The notes below the pieces were generated by a model that was given only the letters and a program-made list of their open reading frames with translations, searched no databases and was not told where the DNA came from. This document shows, one piece after another, positions 49,118-63,475 of a stretch of 64,000 nucleotides of DNA (its first letter is position 1; every line of letters begins with the position of its first letter). A program made the translations under genes and the position numbers. Origin of the DNA: an uncultured Eubacteriales bacterium (GTDB lineage Bacteria; Bacillota; Clostridia; Christensenellales; CALVMC01); contig CASFOZ010000003.1 in the NCBI GenBank assembly GCA_949296455.1, forward strand, positions 62,001 to 126,000, written 5' to 3'.

Positions 49118-50707
49118 CTAAATTTCGTCATAATTATCGGGTAAATCATTTTCTATTAAAACCGTATCGCCGGCTTTAAGAATATTTTTAAACTCGCTTT
49201 TCACCTCTTCAAGTGAGTTTTTAATTATAATATTTTCAACATCGAATTTTTCTTCAATAAGAGCGTTATAAATAGGTTTTGTTCGGTTTTTACCTATTAA
49301 AACGACACAGGAACAAACTTTTGCCATTTTTTTGCCTATTTCGTAATTTGTATCGTAATGCTTAAAACCCTGCTCGACAATACCCGGAGTAACGATAATT
49401 TTTCTTCCTTCGAAAAGATTAAGACAATCCAATGCGGAATTGAATCCGTCGCTGTTAGAATTGAAACTGTCGTCGATAACGCATATATCGTTATCTGCGT
49501 CGATAAGTTCCATACGGTGCGGTACGGGCTTCAGAAATTTTATAGCATTTACTATGTTTTCGTTTTTTATTCCTATTTTATGCGCAGCAGCTGCAGACAC
49601 GGCAATATTCAGAACATTATGTAATCCTATTAATTTTGTTCTGCAAAATAAACTTTCATCTTCAATATGTAAAATGAATTCGCTGCCCGTCTTTGTTACG
49701 GTAATCCGGTCTGCGTAAACATCGGCTTTATTTTTTATCGAAACTCCGACCTTGTTCCCTTCATAACACTTATAAATTTCATTTGCATAAGGACTGTCGA
49801 TATTTATAATAAGCGTACCGTTTGACGGTAACATATCGGCTATTTTTTTCTTTTCGTTCACTATATTTTCCTGTGTTTCGAAGCTTTCCAAATGCTGACT
49901 GTTTATACCTGTAAGTATTCCGTATGTAGGTTTGACAAGGTTCATAAGTTCCTCTATATCGCCTTTGTGTCGTGCGCCCATTTCGGCTATAAAAAACTCG
50001 GTATCGCTTTTTAAATCGGAAACCGTCTTACATATACCCATAGGAGTATTGTAACTTTCGGGCGTTGAAAGTACGTTGCGTTCTTCTGAAATCATAGCGT
50101 TGAGTATGTTTTTAACACCGGTTTTTCCGTATGAACCCGTAATACCTATTTTTATTGCAGAACTTTCATTTAAAGTTTTTTCGCACTTTTCAATGTAACA
50201 GCTTTTGATATAATTTTCCAAAGGCTCACATAAATTTACCGCTATCAAAAAATACAACGGAACAAAAAAAGCGAGTATAGGCGCAAAGACAGAAATAAAA
50301 TCCGCATCCGTACTAATCAGTGAAATTACGGAAAATACAACGAAATATATTAAAAGAATTTCCACGAACATTACAACAAAAAGTCTTTTGATTCTGTTAG
50401 TGATTTTAAAAGGTTTTTTACCGCTGTAACTTTTGGAAAAGAATGCAAGATACACACAGCATATTCCGAATATTACCCAATAAAAATAAACCGCATATAC
50501 CCTGTCGGAAATTATACATAGAAAACTTGTAATCAAAGAAAGCACGGTAAGAAGCAAGAAGACGAAATTGAATTTTTCAAAATAAGTCTTATCCTTCACA
50601 CTGAAATCAGGTTTGTATCCGTTAAGCTGTAAAGTGTAAACATATTGCTTTGAAGTTATTAAAACTAAAATCGAAAAAAACAAAGCAAGTAGAAAATTAA
50701 GCAACAT
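49118..50707 (-). CDS. murF: MurF-like Mur ligase fused to an N-terminal membrane domain
   Basis: Adds D-Ala-D-Ala to the UDP-MurNAc tripeptide. The 529-aa protein has about five membrane helices (2-18, 46-67, 73-91, 110-131, 138-158) ahead of a Mur-ligase core with the P-loop GITGSYGKTG (188-197), TPESYNTPMGICKTV, EMGARHKGDIEEL, GINSQHLESF, PVPHRMEL and IDDSFNSNSDGF. Ordinary MurF lacks the membrane part. GGAGGG before the ATG at 50707 decides the start. No other murF is in the window, and ddl follows, which supports the MurF function. Confidence 0.88.
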   Translation of the reverse strand: MLLNFLLALFFSILVLITSKQYVYTLQLNGYKPDFSVKDKTYFEKFNFVFLLLTVLSLITSFLCIISDRVYAVYFYWVIFGICCVYLAFFSKSYSGKKPFKITNRIKRLFVVMFVEILLIYFVVFSVISLISTDADFISVFAPILAFFVPLYFLIAVNLCEPLENYIKSCYIEKCEKTLNESSAIKIGITGSYGKTGVKNILNAMISEERNVLSTPESYNTPMGICKTVSDLKSDTEFFIAEMGARHKGDIEELMNLVKPTYGILTGINSQHLESFETQENIVNEKKKIADMLPSNGTLIINIDSPYANEIYKCYEGNKVGVSIKNKADVYADRITVTKTGSEFILHIEDESLFCRTKLIGLHNVLNIAVSAAAAHKIGIKNENIVNAIKFLKPVPHRMELIDADNDICVIDDSFNSNSDGFNSALDCLNLFEGRKIIVTPGIVEQGFKHYDTNYEIGKKMAKVCSCVVLIGKNRTKPIYNALIEEKFDVENIIIKNSLEEVKSEFKNILKAGDTVLIENDLPDNYDEI

Positions 50708-50709
50708 AA

Positions 50710-51396
50710 TTAACCCTCCGCAAATTTTTGAAGTATAATGGTAAAGTCGCTTAAACATTCTATGTAACAAAAGTGCGAACCGTGAAAAATAATTAATGCA
50801 GAATCCGGAATTTTTTCTTCCATAATTTTTGCCATATATAAAGGCGTGTCTTTGTCCTTATCGCCCCATATAAGAAGAACGGGAATATTTATTTCAGAAA
50901 GCAACGGCGTTAAATCTTCGTTGACGACATTAACGAAGGTTTTTTTCATTACATCGCTTAAAGCATTGTAATCCTGAGAACCGGTTTTAAGCGTTATATT
51001 GAATTTTTTGAAAAATTTATAAGCGCCTACTTTTATCTTGTAACTCAAACCTCTTTTCGGTAATACTCCTGCGCTGTCTGTAAGCAACATTCTTTTTATG
51101 TATGGAAAATTCTGAGAAGCGAGTTTTATTGCCACTCTGCCCCCGAAAGAATGTGCGCAAACAGTGAGATTTTTCATGTCGTAAAACTCAATAATTTCTT
51201 TTACCGCTTCTACATAATCATCGAGACAAAGAGGATTTTCGGGATGTTCCGAATCTCCGAATCCGTAAAAGTCCAATAAAGTTATTCTGTGATTTTGAAT
51301 ATTTCGGGCAACGCCCGTAAAACTGTCGATAGAGCCGCCCCAACCGTGCAAAAAAAGAATGTCGTCTCCCGAACCGAATTGTATATGATTTAAAAT
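50710..51396 (-). CDS. Alpha/beta hydrolase, probable AUU start
   Basis: Alpha/beta-hydrolase fold, about 228 aa, with the oxyanion-region HGWGGSIDSF near the N-terminus, nucleophile elbow CAHSFGGR, an Asp in LLIWGDKDKDTPL, and a C-terminal HGSHFC with the catalytic His. The conventional first start (TTG at 51351) would remove the first strand. In frame just upstream lie ILNHIQFGSGDDILFL residues typical of the family, reached only from an ATT at 51396 that has GAGGTG 7 nt upstream; an in-frame stop at 51405-51403 excludes longer forms. Substrate unknown. Located between rimI and murF. Confidence 0.8.
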   Translation of the reverse strand: MLNHIQFGSGDDILFLHGWGGSIDSFTGVARNIQNHRITLLDFYGFGDSEHPENPLCLDDYVEAVKEIIEFYDMKNLTVCAHSFGGRVAIKLASQNFPYIKRMLLTDSAGVLPKRGLSYKIKVGAYKFFKKFNITLKTGSQDYNALSDVMKKTFVNVVNEDLTPLLSEINIPVLLIWGDKDKDTPLYMAKIMEEKIPDSALIIFHGSHFCYIECLSDFTIILQKFAEG

Positions 51397-52925: not shown

Positions 52926-52930
52926 TAGAT

Positions 52931-53100
52931 TATTCTTTGGGGCGGAGTGAAAATCTCCACCGGCGGTATAGTCCGCAAGCCTGTATGGCAGAGAAGGGCG
53001 CAATTCCCTCACCGACAGTTAAAGTCTGGATGGTAAAAGAATAAAATTCATATCATTCTTTTATGCCCCTGTTTCAAGGGTTTTTTTATACCCTTAAAGG
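52931..53100 (+). promoter_or_regulatory. FMN riboswitch (RFN element) with expression platform
   Basis: The aptamer (52931-53043) is closed by TATTCTT / AAGAATA and has the conserved RFN blocks GGGGCGGAGTGAAAATC, CACCGGCGGTA, CCGCAAGCC, CAATTCCC, CCGACAGTTAAAGTC and GGATGG. Downstream, CCCTGTTTCAAGGG followed by seven T residues (about 53066-53087) resembles a weak terminator. An alternative hairpin, AAGGGT with ACCCTT, overlaps it and ends near the ribU SD. Known function: binds FMN and shuts off riboflavin transport or synthesis genes. Confidence 0.93.
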
Positions 53101-53109
53101 CGGTGTTTT

Positions 53110-53967
53110 ATGAAAAAGAAATTCTCTCTGAGTACAAGAAAAATTGCTGGAATAGGTATGCTTGCGGCGCTTAGCATAATACTTGTCACATTCATACATT
53201 TTTCTATTTTTCCTGCAGTAAGCTTTCTCGAATATGACCCTGCGGACATACCGATATTTATAGGAACTTTTGTATACGGTCCTACCGTCGGAATAATTCT
53301 TACGATAGTTGTAAGCGTTTTGCAAGGTTTAACTGTCAGCGCAGGAAGCGGCTGGATAGGAATAGTTATGCATATTATTGCGACGGGAAGTTTCGTACTT
53401 ACGGCAGGTTTTATTTATAAATATCATAAAACTCTTAAAGGTGCGATAATTTCTCTTGTATCGGGGTGTCTCGTATGGGTATCGGTAATGATGCTGTGCA
53501 ACCTTGCTTTAACGCCTTTATTCTTTCCGGATTACGATTCGGGATTTAAAACCGTACTTGAACTGTTAATTCCCTTCATTCTTCCTTTTAACCTTATAAA
53601 AGCGGGCGTAAACAGTGTTATAACATTTATACTTTATAAGAGTATGCATAAATTTTTGAAGAAGTATTTTGATGAACCTGAAAAAAGCAATAAGTCCACG
53701 CAATCGGAACAAAATTTTTCTTGCGAGACAAGTGAAAATTCCAAAACCGAAACTCAGAATAATTTGAAAATCAACGAACAAAACGATTTCGAAAAAGAGA
53801 CAGTTACTAATGATGTCGATAACGAAAAGACTCCGGAAATTTTAACGGCTTCCGCAACGGAAAAAAATGAAAATGCCTTTTCGCTTACCGACACAAAAAG
53901 CCGTAACGATGTTAAAAATAATTCTGACAAAAACAAAAATTTAAAAACAGAAAAAAACAGTCTTTAA
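53110..53967 (+). CDS. ribU: Riboflavin ECF transporter S component RibU with long C-terminal tail
   Basis: Substrate-binding membrane subunit that takes up riboflavin with a shared ECF energising module. Residues 1-185 have five to six membrane segments with RibU features (LSIILVTFIHFSIFP, FLEYDPADIPIFIGTFVYGP, GWIGIVMHIIATGSFV). Residues about 190-285 form a polar Asn/Lys/Glu/Ser-rich tail with no hydrophobic part, roughly doubling the soluble portion compared with the usual 185-200 aa protein. AAGGCGG precedes the ATG. The FMN riboswitch upstream confirms the substrate. No ECF ATPase genes are nearby. Confidence 0.93.
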   Translation: MKKKFSLSTRKIAGIGMLAALSIILVTFIHFSIFPAVSFLEYDPADIPIFIGTFVYGPTVGIILTIVVSVLQGLTVSAGSGWIGIVMHIIATGSFVLTAGFIYKYHKTLKGAIISLVSGCLVWVSVMMLCNLALTPLFFPDYDSGFKTVLELLIPFILPFNLIKAGVNSVITFILYKSMHKFLKKYFDEPEKSNKSTQSEQNFSCETSENSKTETQNNLKINEQNDFEKETVTNDVDNEKTPEILTASATEKNENAFSLTDTKSRNDVKNNSDKNKNLKTEKNSL

Positions 53968-57091: not shown

Positions 57092-57200
57092 TAAAAACAC
57101 AAAACCATCTAAGCTAAATTTAGCCCAGACGGTCGGCATATACCGCTTCCTGCTCCCCCATAGTAACCTATGTATCCGTCAGTTGCAGAAAGACGCTCAG
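57092..57200 (-). promoter_or_regulatory. ZTP (pfl) riboswitch with overlapping terminator
   Basis: On the minus strand the leader has CTGACGG, a CATAG-GTTA-CTATG hairpin, GGGGAGC, and after a linker the hallmark CCGTCTGGGC (57132-57123). The same CCGTCTGGGC forms the 5' arm of a terminator: 57132-57119 can pair along its whole length (with G-U pairs, apart from the tip loop) with 57118-57105, followed by TTTTGTGTTTTT. Ligand binding should free the transcript to read through, an ON switch. Known ligand of the class: ZTP/ZMP, signals of low 10-formyl-THF. Confidence 0.9.
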
Positions 57201-57322: not shown

Positions 57323-58018
57323 TTAATTTTCGTCCGATTCAAAATGAGAGATATGTTCGGGTGAATTGATTAATACATCGTTTATATAAAGTCTGAACTG
57401 ACAACCTAAAAATCTTGCCGCTTTTTCACTCATAATCATTCTTTTGAGATAAATCTGAAAGTAATCCATAACGGAAGAACTTTCATTCATATAAAATTTT
57501 GAAGAAATAATCTTATTTCCTTTATCCACAAATACAGAATTTTTAAGAATAGCGTAATTTACTCTGTCGTGAATATCGTTAGCATCGAAATCGTTTCTTC
57601 CTACCCTTGTTCTGTGAGCGTCGCTTTTATCGGCGATAACGACAGCTGCCCCCACAGGATTTACTATTGCGCCTATTTCTTCTTCGTGGTTTCCTATAGC
57701 TGCAATAATAACTCCGATATCTTCAAGCGGCATACCCATTTTTACAAATATAGGATAAAGCAATATTGCTCCCGTTATTCCGTGATTGTTTCGGTTTACG
57801 GAATTTCCGACATCGTGAACGTATCCTGCGATTTTAGCAAGTTCTTGAAGCCGTTCATCATACCCTATTTCTTTTAATATACGATATGCGGTATTCGAAA
57901 CATAACTTGCGTGTCTCAGTCCGTGTTCTGTATAACTCATAGCCGTAAGACAGTCACACGATGCTTTCAGTAACATACTAATTTCTTCGTTATTTTTTAT
58001 ATCTTCAAGCGTAATCAT
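57323..58018 (-). CDS. HD-domain metal-dependent phosphohydrolase
   Basis: The 231-aa protein has an HD-superfamily core: HGLRHASYVSNTAYRIL, YVHDVGN (the HD pair), NNHGITGA, GNHEEEIG and IADKSDAHRTRV, supplying the metal ligands. The following C-terminal part (about 150-231) has no recognised domain. The family hydrolyses nucleotides or cyclic dinucleotides, but no GYP motif is present, so a c-di-GMP role is not supported. AGGTG precedes the ATG. Last gene of the run beginning with the lipoprotein. Confidence 0.82.
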   Translation of the reverse strand: MITLEDIKNNEEISMLLKASCDCLTAMSYTEHGLRHASYVSNTAYRILKEIGYDERLQELAKIAGYVHDVGNSVNRNNHGITGAILLYPIFVKMGMPLEDIGVIIAAIGNHEEEIGAIVNPVGAAVVIADKSDAHRTRVGRNDFDANDIHDRVNYAILKNSVFVDKGNKIISSKFYMNESSSVMDYFQIYLKRMIMSEKAARFLGCQFRLYINDVLINSPEHISHFESDEN

Positions 58019-58035
58019 ATTTTCACCTGCAATTA

Positions 58036-59742
58036 TTATACCATAAATTTATCCGATAAATTCAAACTGTTTATATACTTTTTAAAAATTCCTTCGTTGA
58101 CTTCGAAATCGGGGCAATTTTTTATAGCTTGTTCATAACTATATTCGGAAGAAAGCGCAAGAGCAATGTAAGAAAGGGTTTTATCGGAATACAATTTGAT
58201 TTTAGCGTTATTCATGGCTTTTTCGATTATGCTTACGGCATTTAGAAGTTTTTCTATGGATACAATCTGATTCTGATAATAGAAAAACTGCAAAGCGACT
58301 ATGAAAATTCTGTTCATTTGAGATTTTTCGGGAAGCGGTGAAATATGGGCAATATTAACCTTCCCCAACATATCGTTAAGACAAAGAGAATATTCACCTA
58401 CATTTCCCGTTTTGTAATGATAAACCAATTGAAAAATAATATAGTATTTTATTTGGTCGGGAACGGACGGCGAAGCTATTATGTATTTAAAATAATCTTC
58501 TATTACATAATTTTGTTTTTCGAAAAGCAAATTAACTGCGTTTATGGTATCCTTTTTGTTCGGACAAAGTTTTAATGCAAAATAAAAAATCTTTCTGATT
58601 TGTTCGCTGTTATTAAATTCATCGACAAATTTATCTTCGTTTGATTTTAATAGGTCGAACAATGAAATAAATTGTTCTTCGAGATTTTTAGGATAATTTA
58701 AAGTTATATCGGTTATAAGCGGTTGACTGTCTGATTTCAAAAAATATTCTGCGTAAAACTCACTAGGATAAATATCCCTGTATAGTTTATACATATTCAT
58801 CATTATTTCTTTTGCTTTTTGCTTTTCGCCGCAAAAAGAATATGTAAAAGCAAGAAATTTATTGCTTTCAAAATCGAAATTATCCCCTCTTTCCCATTCG
58901 TCTTTAGCAAAATTCAAAGCCTCGGAAAAGTTACCTGCTTGTAAATTTAAAATTATTCTTCTTTTAGAGTGAACATATCTTTTAAGCTCTTTATAAGAAT
59001 TGATTTTTTCGAGAACTTTTATTAACTCTTCTCTATTATCTTCTGCTACCAAAAGTTCGGCTTTAGCAAAATAAAATTCCGGTGTATCATTAAAATTTTT
59101 TTCCATAAATCGAAGACTTGTGTTTGCAGTATGTAAATCCCCCGATTTAATCAATGTGAAAATATACAATTCGCATGCAAAAGAATTCTTACGGGATAAC
59201 TTTTCAAAATCTTCTAAAACATAATTTAAATTCACATAATCTTTTCTATCAATGCAAGCGCATGATTCCAAAAGCAAATCGGCGGCTTCCTCTTCTCTTT
59301 CCTGACTTAACAGAACTATATCGTCATTTCCGACATTGATAAAATTTTCGAAGAGTCTTTCCATATTTTCGCCGTACTCATCGCTTAAAATGCCACCGTC
59401 TGTTTCTATTTCGTCTGCTTCGAGCGAAAGTTTTCCGAACATCAATTTAGATATGGGAGTATTCGACCCGCTGAGATTCAGTATATAATGAAAAGTACAT
59501 TCCTGAACACTGTAATTATCTGCAATAAGTCTTGAAAGAATTTCGTTTGATTCTCTGAAACAACCCTCGCCCGTCAATATGTCTGCAATTCTTTTCAGAT
59601 AGCGCATCGATATGATTTTATTAGGACAATTTTTAGAGGCAAGATACAAATTATCGAGACAACCGGCAATATCGTTTCTGTCAAAACAATCATCGGCGTT
59701 TTCTTCGTATATTTTATATGATTTTCTGAAATCAATTATCAT
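58036..59742 (-). CDS. TPR-like helical repeat protein
   Basis: Unrecognised 568-aa soluble protein. Its sequence is almost entirely helix-forming with TPR-like pairs, for example DIAGCLDNLYLASKNCPN near the start, CELYIFTLIKSGDLHTANTSL and FKFLAFTYSFCGEKQKAKE-like segments (NKFLAFTYSFCGEKQKAKEI) in the middle. No signal peptide or membrane helix. The start overlaps the hslO end by 11 nt, so translation is probably coupled. It is likely a protein-interaction scaffold; no partner can be named. Confidence 0.7.
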   Translation of the reverse strand: MIIDFRKSYKIYEENADDCFDRNDIAGCLDNLYLASKNCPNKIISMRYLKRIADILTGEGCFRESNEILSRLIADNYSVQECTFHYILNLSGSNTPISKLMFGKLSLEADEIETDGGILSDEYGENMERLFENFINVGNDDIVLLSQEREEEAADLLLESCACIDRKDYVNLNYVLEDFEKLSRKNSFACELYIFTLIKSGDLHTANTSLRFMEKNFNDTPEFYFAKAELLVAEDNREELIKVLEKINSYKELKRYVHSKRRIILNLQAGNFSEALNFAKDEWERGDNFDFESNKFLAFTYSFCGEKQKAKEIMMNMYKLYRDIYPSEFYAEYFLKSDSQPLITDITLNYPKNLEEQFISLFDLLKSNEDKFVDEFNNSEQIRKIFYFALKLCPNKKDTINAVNLLFEKQNYVIEDYFKYIIASPSVPDQIKYYIIFQLVYHYKTGNVGEYSLCLNDMLGKVNIAHISPLPEKSQMNRIFIVALQFFYYQNQIVSIEKLLNAVSIIEKAMNNAKIKLYSDKTLSYIALALSSEYSYEQAIKNCPDFEVNEGIFKKYINSLNLSDKFMV

Positions 59743-60598
59743 TTTTGAATAATCCCGTAACTTTTTCTCTGTCGTAAATATAATTTTTTTCGCAGAATTC
59801 GCATTTGACTTCTATTCTGCCTTCTTTATCTAAAATATCGAAAGCTTCGTCTTTTCCGAGACTTAAAATAACTTCATCGATTTTTTTGTCGCTGCAATCG
59901 CACTCATATTTGAACTTACGGCTTTCCAATTTTTTATAATCGAAATGACCGAAGTATTTTTCAAAAATTTCTTCATAAGAATATTCTTCAATCATTGCTG
60001 AAAAATCTTTGAAATTAGTAAGAATATCTTCAATAACCGTTATTATCTCATCGGGACAATCCGGCATAGGTTCGGCAATCATAGCAAGACTTTTGACTTT
60101 GTCTTCTCTTATTATTTCTCCGCTCACAATAGCGCAAGGACGGTTTTCGGAAGCGGTAAAATAATATGCAAAGTCGCTGTAAATCTGTCCTGTTAAAATT
60201 TTACATTTACTGGAATAAGGCATTTTACCGCCCGTATCTTTAATAATCTGTAAAAAACCGTTTTTACCTAAAACCTTTGCGGTATCATACCCGTTACCCT
60301 TATAATACGAAATATGCGAAGTTTGTGTAAGATAACCTTTCGCTTTCAATGAACCGTTACAAGCCGTTACGATTTTCTGTCCGCAATCGTCGAAAGTCAT
60401 AATAACCGAAAGTTTATCGCTTTTATTTTTAAAGCCGGATGCAGTAAAAACAGTAAGAGTTAAGGTTCTTATTAACTCGGCTGCCGACATTTCCGAAAGC
60501 TTATGAACTTTAATAACATCTTCGGCAAGAGTATCGGCAATTACGAATGTAATTAAAACACGGTCGTTTAAAATCAAATATTTTTCTATACTGTTCAT
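59732..60598 (-). CDS. hslO: Redox-regulated chaperone Hsp33
   Basis: Holdase activated by oxidation. The 288-aa protein has the Hsp33 body (IVSGEIIREDKVKSLAMIAEPMPD-type segment near 165) and the C-terminal zinc switch with CDCS near 240 and CEFC near 273, matching the CxC...CxxC set. The ATG overlaps the preceding membrane-protein gene by 4 nt. Confidence 0.93.
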   Translation of the reverse strand: MNSIEKYLILNDRVLITFVIADTLAEDVIKVHKLSEMSAAELIRTLTLTVFTASGFKNKSDKLSVIMTFDDCGQKIVTACNGSLKAKGYLTQTSHISYYKGNGYDTAKVLGKNGFLQIIKDTGGKMPYSSKCKILTGQIYSDFAYYFTASENRPCAIVSGEIIREDKVKSLAMIAEPMPDCPDEIITVIEDILTNFKDFSAMIEEYSYEEIFEKYFGHFDYKKLESRKFKYECDCSDKKIDEVILSLGKDEAFDILDKEGRIEVKCEFCEKNYIYDREKVTGLFKNDN

Positions 60599-61818
60599 TT
60601 GTTATCGTTACTCTGATTGTTGGTTATTTCTATTTTCATCGAATCGTCGTTTTCAACAGAATTGTTCGAAGGTTGTTGAGTAGGTTTCTTCTTTTTCTTA
60701 TATGGCGGTCTGTAATTCTGATTTTTGTTTTTATTAATAGAATTGTTTTTATTAGGCTGAATATTAACGTTTTCTTTATCGGAATCTTTTACAGATAAAT
60801 CCTTATCCGCAACAGCCTTTTCCGTACCGCCATTGCCCTTTTTGCTATTATTATATTTTGCAGATAAATTATTTTTGTTTTTGTTTTTATTTTCATCTTT
60901 GACGGCAAATGTTTTTTTGTTTGGATTTAATTTCTGTTCGTAAAGCGGCGTAATTATCCCGTCATATTTTGCCTGAGCTAAAGCGGTATACATCAAAGCA
61001 TAAAACGAAAAACCTACAAAGCCCATAAAAATTATAATTATGAAACTCATAAAGGAAATAAAAGATAAAAACAAAAGAGCCGTGGCAATCACAACAATTA
61101 AATCCGCAAGAGGAGTAGTAACAGAAAGTATAGAAGCGTTTTTGATTAAGTCTTTAAAGGAAAATTTGTAATGCACCACAAGCGGACAAAGGTTGACAAA
61201 AAATACAAAAACGGCAAGCGCCAAAAGCGCACAAATTACTATGACAAGATAACTCCACCAAGCTGCGGTTTTCAATACTATAAATTCAAGTTGCATAATT
61301 ATAAGATATGCAAACAAAGCGACAAATCCGCCAAGCAGAGTGAATATGATTATAAATTTCCACCAGTGAAGTTTTATTCCTCTGAAAAAATGTTTTAAAG
61401 TCTTAACATTTGCTTCCCACATAAAATTTCTTGCGCAAAAGAAAAGTCCGCTTGCTCCGAGCCCTGCAAATGTAAAACAAGGAATGGTAAGGAGAAAGGC
61501 AAATTCGAAAACTTCCAAAACCATATATTCCGCATTAGTAGTATCTGTGTTAAGTCCCGGATACCCTAAACCGATATTTCCCATAAGATTAAGGTCTGCG
61601 TTAATCGCATTTACAAGACCGGGAACAAGCCAGAAAAAGATAACGAAAAAAGGTATTAAAAAAACAAGAAAAATAAGATTTATCAATACCAAATCGATAA
61701 AGCGGGTTTTAAATATCCGAAAGAATTCGGAAATCATTCCCCCTTTTCTTTCAACAGCGTTTACTCTTAAATCTTTTTCGGGTGTTATTTTCGAATACAA
61801 CACTTCCCTAATTGACAT
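60595..61818 (-). CDS. DUF624/YesL-like membrane protein with polar C-terminal tail
   Basis: The 407-aa protein has about five to six membrane helices (41-68, 100-128, 151-178, 188-213, 236-275), and the segment FFRIFKTRFIDLVLINLIFL resembles the start of YesL/DUF624 proteins, whose function is unknown. From about residue 297 a low-complexity Asn/Lys/Pro/Gln-rich tail of some 110 residues follows, probably disordered and cytoplasmic. AAAGGAG precedes the ATG. Confidence 0.75.
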   Translation of the reverse strand: MSIREVLYSKITPEKDLRVNAVERKGGMISEFFRIFKTRFIDLVLINLIFLVFLIPFFVIFFWLVPGLVNAINADLNLMGNIGLGYPGLNTDTTNAEYMVLEVFEFAFLLTIPCFTFAGLGASGLFFCARNFMWEANVKTLKHFFRGIKLHWWKFIIIFTLLGGFVALFAYLIIMQLEFIVLKTAAWWSYLVIVICALLALAVFVFFVNLCPLVVHYKFSFKDLIKNASILSVTTPLADLIVVIATALLFLSFISFMSFIIIIFMGFVGFSFYALMYTALAQAKYDGIITPLYEQKLNPNKKTFAVKDENKNKNKNNLSAKYNNSKKGNGGTEKAVADKDLSVKDSDKENVNIQPNKNNSINKNKNQNYRPPYKKKKKPTQQPSNNSVENDDSMKIEITNNQSNDNK

Positions 61819-61829
61819 ATAAAACTCCT

Positions 61830-63095
61830 TTAAATAACTCCGCCCGAATTAATTCTGACATAAGTATCGTCCAATGATTTGATTGTTTCCGTTCCTGCAG
61901 AGTACATAAAAGCCACTCCTGCAAGTTGATTGATTTCTTCTATGCTGCAAGATGCAGACGCCGCTATTGCTCCCTCAACGGCAGTAGAAGAAGCGTCAAC
62001 CGGCGGGTCAAAAAGTATCGAACACATATACCAATCTCTTATAACCGGATGGGCTTTCATAGAGTTGCTTCCGTAGCCCGGATAGTTAATAAGCAAAGTC
62101 TGAACTACACAAGAAGACAAAACTCTGTTTACGATAAGAGAACCGTCTACAAAACTATTATCCGCACGGTAAAATTCCATAGTCATACCACGGCGTTTAA
62201 GTTCGTTGAAACATTCTACAAAAGTATCTGCGGAATTACTGTTTATCGAATTTTTCCCAGACCAGGAAATTATGAAATCCGTAGGCGAAAGTCCGGGAGT
62301 CCCGCCGAGATAAGAATCTATATAGGTAAGTCGTTTAGGTATCTGACTGTATTTAATTTGTTTTTCGGATACAAGTTCGGTAAGAAGGAACATACTCGAA
62401 GTTACCAAAACTCCGCCCATAGAATGACCTGCAAATCTAATTTCTTCCTTTCCGAAATCAGAAGGAAGAAGATTAACTGCACGAATATATTCGGCAACGA
62501 AAAGTTCGGAAATAGAAAAATCCAATGAATATTCACTTTGACCGCCCGAAGAAGTCTTGTAGGTGCCTCCCTTTGCCCAAACCTTAGTTTCAATCTGCAT
62601 AATACCGTCATCGGCGAATTTTTCCCAACTGAAAACTGCGACATTATATCCTTGGTCAAGCCAAATTCTTAAAGTGTTCACCTTTTCCGTATCATAACCG
62701 AAATCAGACCCTTTTGCAATATCGAGCGGAACTTCATACGAGTCACGTTCGGAACTTTCTCCTACCTTTACTCCGTGTGCGTTAATTATGGTAGGCTTGG
62801 AAGTATCTACCAAAGCGGCTCCCTCTGCGGTATCAGCCTTGACATAAACTATTTTTTTATTTACATCGTCCCATTTGGTCCAAAAAAGACCCTGTGTTTC
62901 AAGTTCGGGATTATTTTCATAATCGAGATACACTTCGCTTGCATAATCCTTATATTTATTTGCAATTAGATTTTCGTTAATCTGTTCGTTTGAAAAAACA
63001 GGATACTCGTTATTATTGCACGCAGCGACCGAAATACAAATTATAGTACTGACAAGCATAAGTACAATAAACAAAATAAAGTTTTTCTTTTTCAT
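61830..63095 (-). CDS. Secreted lipoprotein with lipase-like alpha/beta hydrolase fold
   Basis: The 421-aa protein has a lipoprotein signal peptide (KKKNFILFIVLMLVSTIIC, then lipobox SVAAC with the lipidated Cys at 26). The nucleophile elbow is GHSMGG near residue 225. Preceding segments, such as VDTSKPTIINAHGVKVGE and TLRIWLDQGYNVAVFSWE, fit the alpha/beta hydrolase fold. Catalytic Asp and His cannot be fixed by eye. The frame opens at 63119, but MKKK at 63095 gives a proper signal peptide; the SD is atypical (GGGG 10-15 nt upstream). Substrate unknown; expected on the outer face of the membrane. Confidence 0.82.
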   Translation of the reverse strand: MKKKNFILFIVLMLVSTIICISVAACNNNEYPVFSNEQINENLIANKYKDYASEVYLDYENNPELETQGLFWTKWDDVNKKIVYVKADTAEGAALVDTSKPTIINAHGVKVGESSERDSYEVPLDIAKGSDFGYDTEKVNTLRIWLDQGYNVAVFSWEKFADDGIMQIETKVWAKGGTYKTSSGGQSEYSLDFSISELFVAEYIRAVNLLPSDFGKEEIRFAGHSMGGVLVTSSMFLLTELVSEKQIKYSQIPKRLTYIDSYLGGTPGLSPTDFIISWSGKNSINSNSADTFVECFNELKRRGMTMEFYRADNSFVDGSLIVNRVLSSCVVQTLLINYPGYGSNSMKAHPVIRDWYMCSILFDPPVDASSTAVEGAIAASASCSIEEINQLAGVAFMYSAGTETIKSLDDTYVRINSGGVI

Positions 63096-63214
63096 TTTCC
63101 CACTTTCCCCACTTAGCATTAAACTAAGAATATAAATAATTATTTATTATTTTACACAATTTCAAATAAAATGTAAAACAGAATTTTATAAATAGGTAAA
63201 TATTGTTAAATTTA

Positions 63215-63243: not shown

Positions 63244-63249
63244 GAAAAT

Positions 63250-63475
63250 GCTGATAGAGGAGCGGTAGGCATCAGTAGCTTATGCGGAAAGCCTTGCAAG
63301 AAAGGCGCATAACGCAAAAGGGCCGATACCGCCGAAATAAAACGCTTCTTGACGGCGTTTTGTTGGTTGAAACGGCTAATACCTTTCAACTGTCATCTTT
63401 AATAGATGGAGGACTATGAGCTAATTTAGATGTAATCGAAATTAGTGCATTTCCTTATCGGTAATGCACTTTTTA
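63250..63475 (+). promoter_or_regulatory. Lysine riboswitch (L box) with terminator and antiterminator
   Basis: The aptamer (63250-63421) shows the conserved blocks GATAGAGGAGCG, CATCAGTAGC, GGGCCGATACCGCCGAAAT, GGTTGAAACGGCTAA, TGTCATC and GATGGAGGACTATG. A terminator, AGTGCATT/AATGCACT (63444-63451 with 63463-63470) plus T residues, follows. CTAATTT (63421-63427) and AAATTAG (63439-63445) can form an antiterminator that takes the first bases of the terminator stem. Lysine binding should therefore stop transcription before asd. Confidence 0.94.

Follow-up and report, generated by a model that had tools for sequence, protein, structure and literature searches.

In Escherichia coli, Hsp33 is encoded at hslR-hslO together with a likely protein-quality-control partner. 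The CxC...CxxC of this protein is a zinc/redox motif. Of 291 genomes of the class Clostridia, whose members are mostly anaerobes, 234 yielded an Hsp33. In the window, which is the whole 64,000-nucleotide stretch of DNA analyzed here, Hsp33 is encoded in a run that also includes genes for a membrane protein, a TPR protein and an HD-domain protein. These four represent, in reduced form, a gene block that is old in Clostridia. The block is real and conserved, and it is a gene neighbourhood built of known folds. No description of it was found in the titles and abstract beginnings of the literature on Hsp33/hslO, yajC/secD/HD domain, DUF624 and MusI.

The five-gene run in the window

The original prediction described five tightly packed genes with overlaps of 4-11 nt that were probably one operon. 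All five open reading frames (ORFs) were confirmed on a single strand. They are listed here with a promoter-like site in front of them.

63149..63177, minus strand: promoter-like TTTACA-17-TAAAAT before the lipase-like gene, by pattern match only
61830..63095, minus strand: alpha/beta-hydrolase (lipase/esterase-like) lipoprotein, lineage-specific head gene, by AlphaFold2 (AF2) model and PDB fold matches (ORF 63119..61830, likely start 63095)
60595..61818, minus strand: polytopic membrane protein with a basic tail, MusI/DUF624-like via its orthologs (ORF 61818..60595)
59732..60598, minus strand: Hsp33 (HslO) redox chaperone, by PF01430 and CxC...CxxC (ORF 60598..59732)
58036..59742, minus strand: diverged TPR protein, ortholog of the block TPR gene, by profile match (ORF 59742..58036)
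57323..58018, minus strand: HD-domain phosphohydrolase, by PF01966, with an AF2 model of pLDDT 91.6 (ORF 58018..57323)

From the lipase-like gene to the HD gene, the frames are separated by an 11-base gap, a 4-base overlap, an 11-base overlap and a 17-base gap. Judged from this packing and the conserved gene order, the run likely forms a single operon, as had been proposed. Compared with the sister species of the genus (G001), dN/dS of the five genes ranges from 0.017 to 0.097, and the HD gene is the slowest evolving. Promoter-like sites in the region number 33, versus 25.2 (sd 4.3) in shuffled sequences, and terminator-like sites within the run are at chance level, two of them falling within the membrane protein gene on the minus strand.

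The genome of the window comprises 1.38 Mb in 19 contigs. The run is flanked by pflB with a ZTP riboswitch on one side and by asd with a lysine riboswitch on the other. The ZMP/ZTP riboswitch (57116-57196) precedes pflB-pflA and is accompanied by a terminator-like hairpin at 57134-57103, while the lysine riboswitch (63247-63424) precedes asd (aspartate-semialdehyde dehydrogenase), which is divergent from the run. Elsewhere in the window, positions 52929-53967 hold an FMN riboswitch followed by a 285-aa protein that matched no NCBIfam family at 1e-20, and positions 49118-51351 hold a murF-like ORF of 550 aa with a TTG start, overlapping another ORF 213 aa long.

The predicted start of the lipase-like gene at 63095 (MKKKNFILF...) was retained as likely, and the VAAC that follows the N-terminus is presumably a lipoprotein-type motif. 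The protein has no Pfam family above cut-off, and its profile found no believable relative in the PDB. Its AlphaFold model (pLDDT 78.8) matched lipases and esterases at probabilities of 0.98-1.00, and the predicted alpha/beta-hydrolase fold is present along with the nucleophile elbow GHSMGG. Esterases and lipases score similarly against the model, and a lipid substrate is only putative. Relatives occur at other places in six further genomes. Three relatives, two in tandem at L159:3488-6833 and one at L160:3073-4827, carry GFSLG, GNGVG and GVNVG in place of GHSMGG. An SdrD_B-like domain is matched by 2 of 11 aligned lipase-like proteins.

The lipase-like gene stands at the head of the block in only two of the 61 genomes examined in the order, probably Christensenellales (G000, the window genome, and G001). 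It is therefore a local addition outside the old block, and its proposed membership of the module is not supported. This bears on the earlier suggestion that all five genes make up an envelope or redox stress module. The tight packing of the five genes, the promoter-like site before the first of them and the joint presence of a lipoprotein, a membrane protein and a redox chaperone are consistent with such a module. However, given the restricted occurrence of the lipase and the lack of Hsp33 in 13 of 55 blocks, this explanation is unlikely.

The remaining proteins of the run were assigned with differing strength. Hsp33 scored 184.6 bits against PF01430 (gathering cut-off 21.4), and the C-terminal CxC...CxxC was present in it and in 34 of 34 Hsp33 proteins scanned. 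Against the NCBIfam HslO equivalog NF001033 it reached 161 bits, below the cut-off of 244, and it is filed as an Hsp33 family protein rather than as that equivalog, with a predicted oxidation-activated holdase activity. The membrane protein reached 21.4 of 160 bits for MusI, below the curated cut-off, and had no Pfam match; its profile found no believable relative in the PDB. Among its orthologs, MusI_fam was matched by 19 of 23 and DUF624 by 8 of 23 (E up to 0.1). Because its own scores fall under the cut-offs of these families, it is named MusI/DUF624-like only.

The TPR protein passes no Pfam TPR cut-off, its only Pfam match being ARM_TT21 at 18.5 of 27 bits. A single-sequence search hit 2 of 61 genomes, within the genus only, and would have made it an orphan. 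That reading was overturned by a TPR profile built from other species, without the window protein, which matches residues 2-562 at E 9e-24. TPR_19 is matched by 24 of 27 ortholog rows (E up to 0.01). The HD protein scored 25.2 bits against PF01966 (cut-off 22). Its residues H36, H68, D69, H79, H111 and D130 are invariant across 42 alignment rows, and we take those of the H...HD...D pattern to be putative metal ligands.

Composition and reach of the conserved block

In the order, the block runs membrane protein (MusI/DUF624-like), class I methyltransferase, Hsp33, TPR protein, HEAT protein and HD protein, with start-stop overlaps common among the genes. The 61 genomes comprise G000 and 60 relatives, and the loci of 56 were read, 48 first, picked for Hsp33, membrane-protein or HD hits, and then eight; G007, G022, G025, G028 and G051 were left unread. 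Profiles were built without gene position, and the rows of a profile match it by construction. A gene is called absent when it gave no hit at the thresholds used within the stretch read, and three of these stretches were short (3.8 kb; seven such in one set read) or ended at contig edges. The TPR gene of G001 was counted by its 90% identity to that of the window.

Two or more members of the block cluster in 55 of the 61 genomes, that of the window among them. Of these 55 blocks, 46 have the TPR protein, the most frequent member, followed by Hsp33 (42), the methyltransferase (40), the membrane protein (36), HEAT (31) and HD (21, including a paralog in G035). No member is universal, and every block has the membrane protein, the TPR protein or both. 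In G030, HD alone was found. Among the 48 loci first read, 31 of 41 Hsp33 loci have the methyltransferase immediately before Hsp33 and 32 of 41 have the TPR gene immediately after it, and TPR precedes HEAT in 22 of 24. G039, from the loci read later, carries the membrane protein, methyltransferase, Hsp33, TPR and HEAT genes in that order. Only G035 departs from this order in the 48 loci: an additional TPR match stands behind its HEAT gene, and what matches HD there is a distantly related paralog encoded on the opposite strand. In L093, a named locus outside the 61-genome set, TPR follows HD instead of preceding HEAT.

Several other features of these loci were observed. In the blocks of G057 and G004 (L049, L050), HEAT comes directly after Hsp33, and two other genes of 580-630 aa lie downstream, one of which matches the TPR profile weakly (4.9e-5). 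In G017, the membrane-protein match and Hsp33 are on different contigs. In addition, asd and genes read as dapA and dapB are divergent beside many blocks.

Gene order is kept far beyond the species, so the refuting condition set with the original prediction, an order confined to the species, does not refute it. The membership given there was partly right: four of its genes belong to the old block and the lipase does not, and the block also includes methyltransferase and HEAT genes that could not be seen from the window. In the window genome itself, profiles gave no methyltransferase match at E 1e-15 and no HEAT match at E 1e-10, and both genes are absent at this locus in G001, the sole stretch of that genome read.

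Searches of 291 genomes of the class gave a TPR match at E < 1e-80 in 36, a few of them cut by contig ends, and 29 of the 36 lie outside the order. In 10 of these 29, from four families, the membrane protein, methyltransferase, Hsp33 and TPR genes are contiguous in this order on one strand (G063, G128, G155, G180, G204, G226, G247, G267, G323 and G338; the membrane protein gene of G155 is cut by a contig end). Among the matches listed, G287 has the membrane protein, methyltransferase and TPR genes with an Hsp33-sized gap. The same three genes occur with no Hsp33 found in G078, G101 and G305, with HEAT next in G078. The methyltransferase and Hsp33 lie together with TPR on a separate contig in 10 of the 29, and in five, among the matches listed, TPR has neither alongside. 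In the class, again among the matches listed, at least 58 methyltransferase-Hsp33 pairs lie within 900 bases on one strand and in one order, three more lie within 1.7 kb, and the two genes are apart in at least 49 genomes. The tally for the 29 genomes outside the order indicates an old block whose members stay together only loosely. Because gene order recurs across the order and the class, it is more than chance.

Hsp33, the repeat proteins and the explanations weighed

Each of the 42 Hsp33 genes detected in the order adjoins one or more further block genes. The genomes of thirteen blocks, 84-98% complete, gave no Hsp33 (G003, G005, G008, G018, G021, G032, G034, G037, G045, G047, G054, G056 and G059). 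Five of these loci (G003, G018, G034, G045 and G056) yielded the membrane protein, TPR and HEAT alone. Since all 13 retain TPR, Hsp33 is one optional member of the block.

The same observation weakens the proposal that the TPR protein is a scaffold for Hsp33. If it were a dedicated co-chaperone or scaffold, its usual place immediately 3' of Hsp33 would be readily explained. However, the TPR gene is kept in every block lacking Hsp33, indicating that it is not merely an Hsp33 scaffold, and ten genomes outside the order pair the methyltransferase with Hsp33 while TPR is on another contig. A dedicated role of this kind is very improbable.

The TPR gene accompanies HEAT in 29 of the 31 blocks that hold HEAT. 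HEAT proteins are strongly acidic, with a median net charge of -11 per 100 aa, but the acidity of the TPR proteins, at -3.5, does not exceed that of Hsp33, at -3.4. Since no HEAT match was obtained in the window genome, the argument from charge fails to cover the window. The TPR, membrane protein and HEAT families are loosely conserved, with mean column identities of 25-31%. The membrane protein is the first block gene in 36 of 55 blocks, and its tail in the window has a net charge of +11. Runs of at least four basic residues occur in 20 of 36 such tails and NPKK in 12 of 36. Against this, eight of 36 have a net negative charge of at least 9, and three of those eight also hold a basic run.

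These features suggest a mechanism in which the TPR protein would act as a hub, a repeat-protein platform that collects client proteins and is usually partnered by the acidic HEAT protein. Where the membrane protein exists, its cytosolic tail may tether the platform to the membrane; since 19 of the 55 blocks showed none, tethering cannot be general. Hsp33 would be co-expressed to hold clients unfolding under oxidation and would have been dropped in some lineages, and the methyltransferase and HD protein would be putative accessory enzymes. This mechanism, taken by itself, is doubtful. The best explanation as a whole, combining a reduced block, one operon and the TPR hub, is given a probability of roughly 0.3.

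Gene order can persist for shared regulation alone, which counts against a joint mechanism. A conserved operon held together by a shared promoter and expression level, with members freely lost and gained, stands at slightly under even odds. This would fit the lack of a universal member in the 55 blocks and the ability of a lipase to join at the head. It would also fit the occurrence of HD beside secD in Sporomusa ovata (L096:5670-11835), where the order is queA-tgt-yajC-(5-formyl-THF ligase)-HD-secD-secF; gene sizes suggest the same HD-secD arrangement in several other loci. In contrast, one gene order recurs throughout the order and in 10 more genomes of the class, and HEAT is nearly always paired with TPR, which counts against this reading.

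The TPR-hub reading can be extended to an undescribed Clostridia TPR/HEAT module that docks damaged proteins, is often membrane-tethered and has its own methyltransferase, with the Hsp33 holdase working through it. Because Hsp33 in the order was found only beside members of this module, the redox holdase would act via the module. This extension is improbable.

Comparison with described systems

The MusI family and DUF624 (NF052431, PF04854) are linked to the block through the matches of its membrane-protein orthologs. The window protein differs in that it falls far under the MusI cut-off, adjoins Hsp33 and possesses a long basic tail. The block methyltransferase profile matches two class I SAM methyltransferases in the PDB, 3d2l (E 8e-72) and 1y8c (E 9e-67), over nearly their full length. 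Neither bears a name more specific than SAM-dependent methyltransferase, and nothing in the window genome matched this profile.

For the HD protein, a single-sequence search of the PDB gave no match, while its profile found 2pq7 (E 9e-5), the nearest solved chain by sequence and an unassigned hydrolase. The model resembles 2pq7 in fold at a VIA Z of 13.5 (149 residues, 3.7 A), tied with the C-terminal HD-like domains of PPX/GppA at 13.6 (174 residues, 4.0 A). Unlike these proteins, the HD protein of the window stands alone, and helical folds at such Z may share their arrangement only. No role in (p)ppGpp or polyphosphate metabolism is proposed, as PPX/GppA, 2pq7, GlyRS and SAMHD1 lie within about 2 Z units in the comparison with the HD model.

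Overall, a block built around Hsp33 and able to outlive it points to the TPR, HEAT, methyltransferase and membrane protein genes as candidate partners, and these offer a handle on a redox-switched chaperone in a mostly anaerobic class. In contrast to hslR-hslO of E. coli, the partners encoded with Hsp33 here are the membrane protein, methyltransferase, TPR, HEAT and HD proteins.
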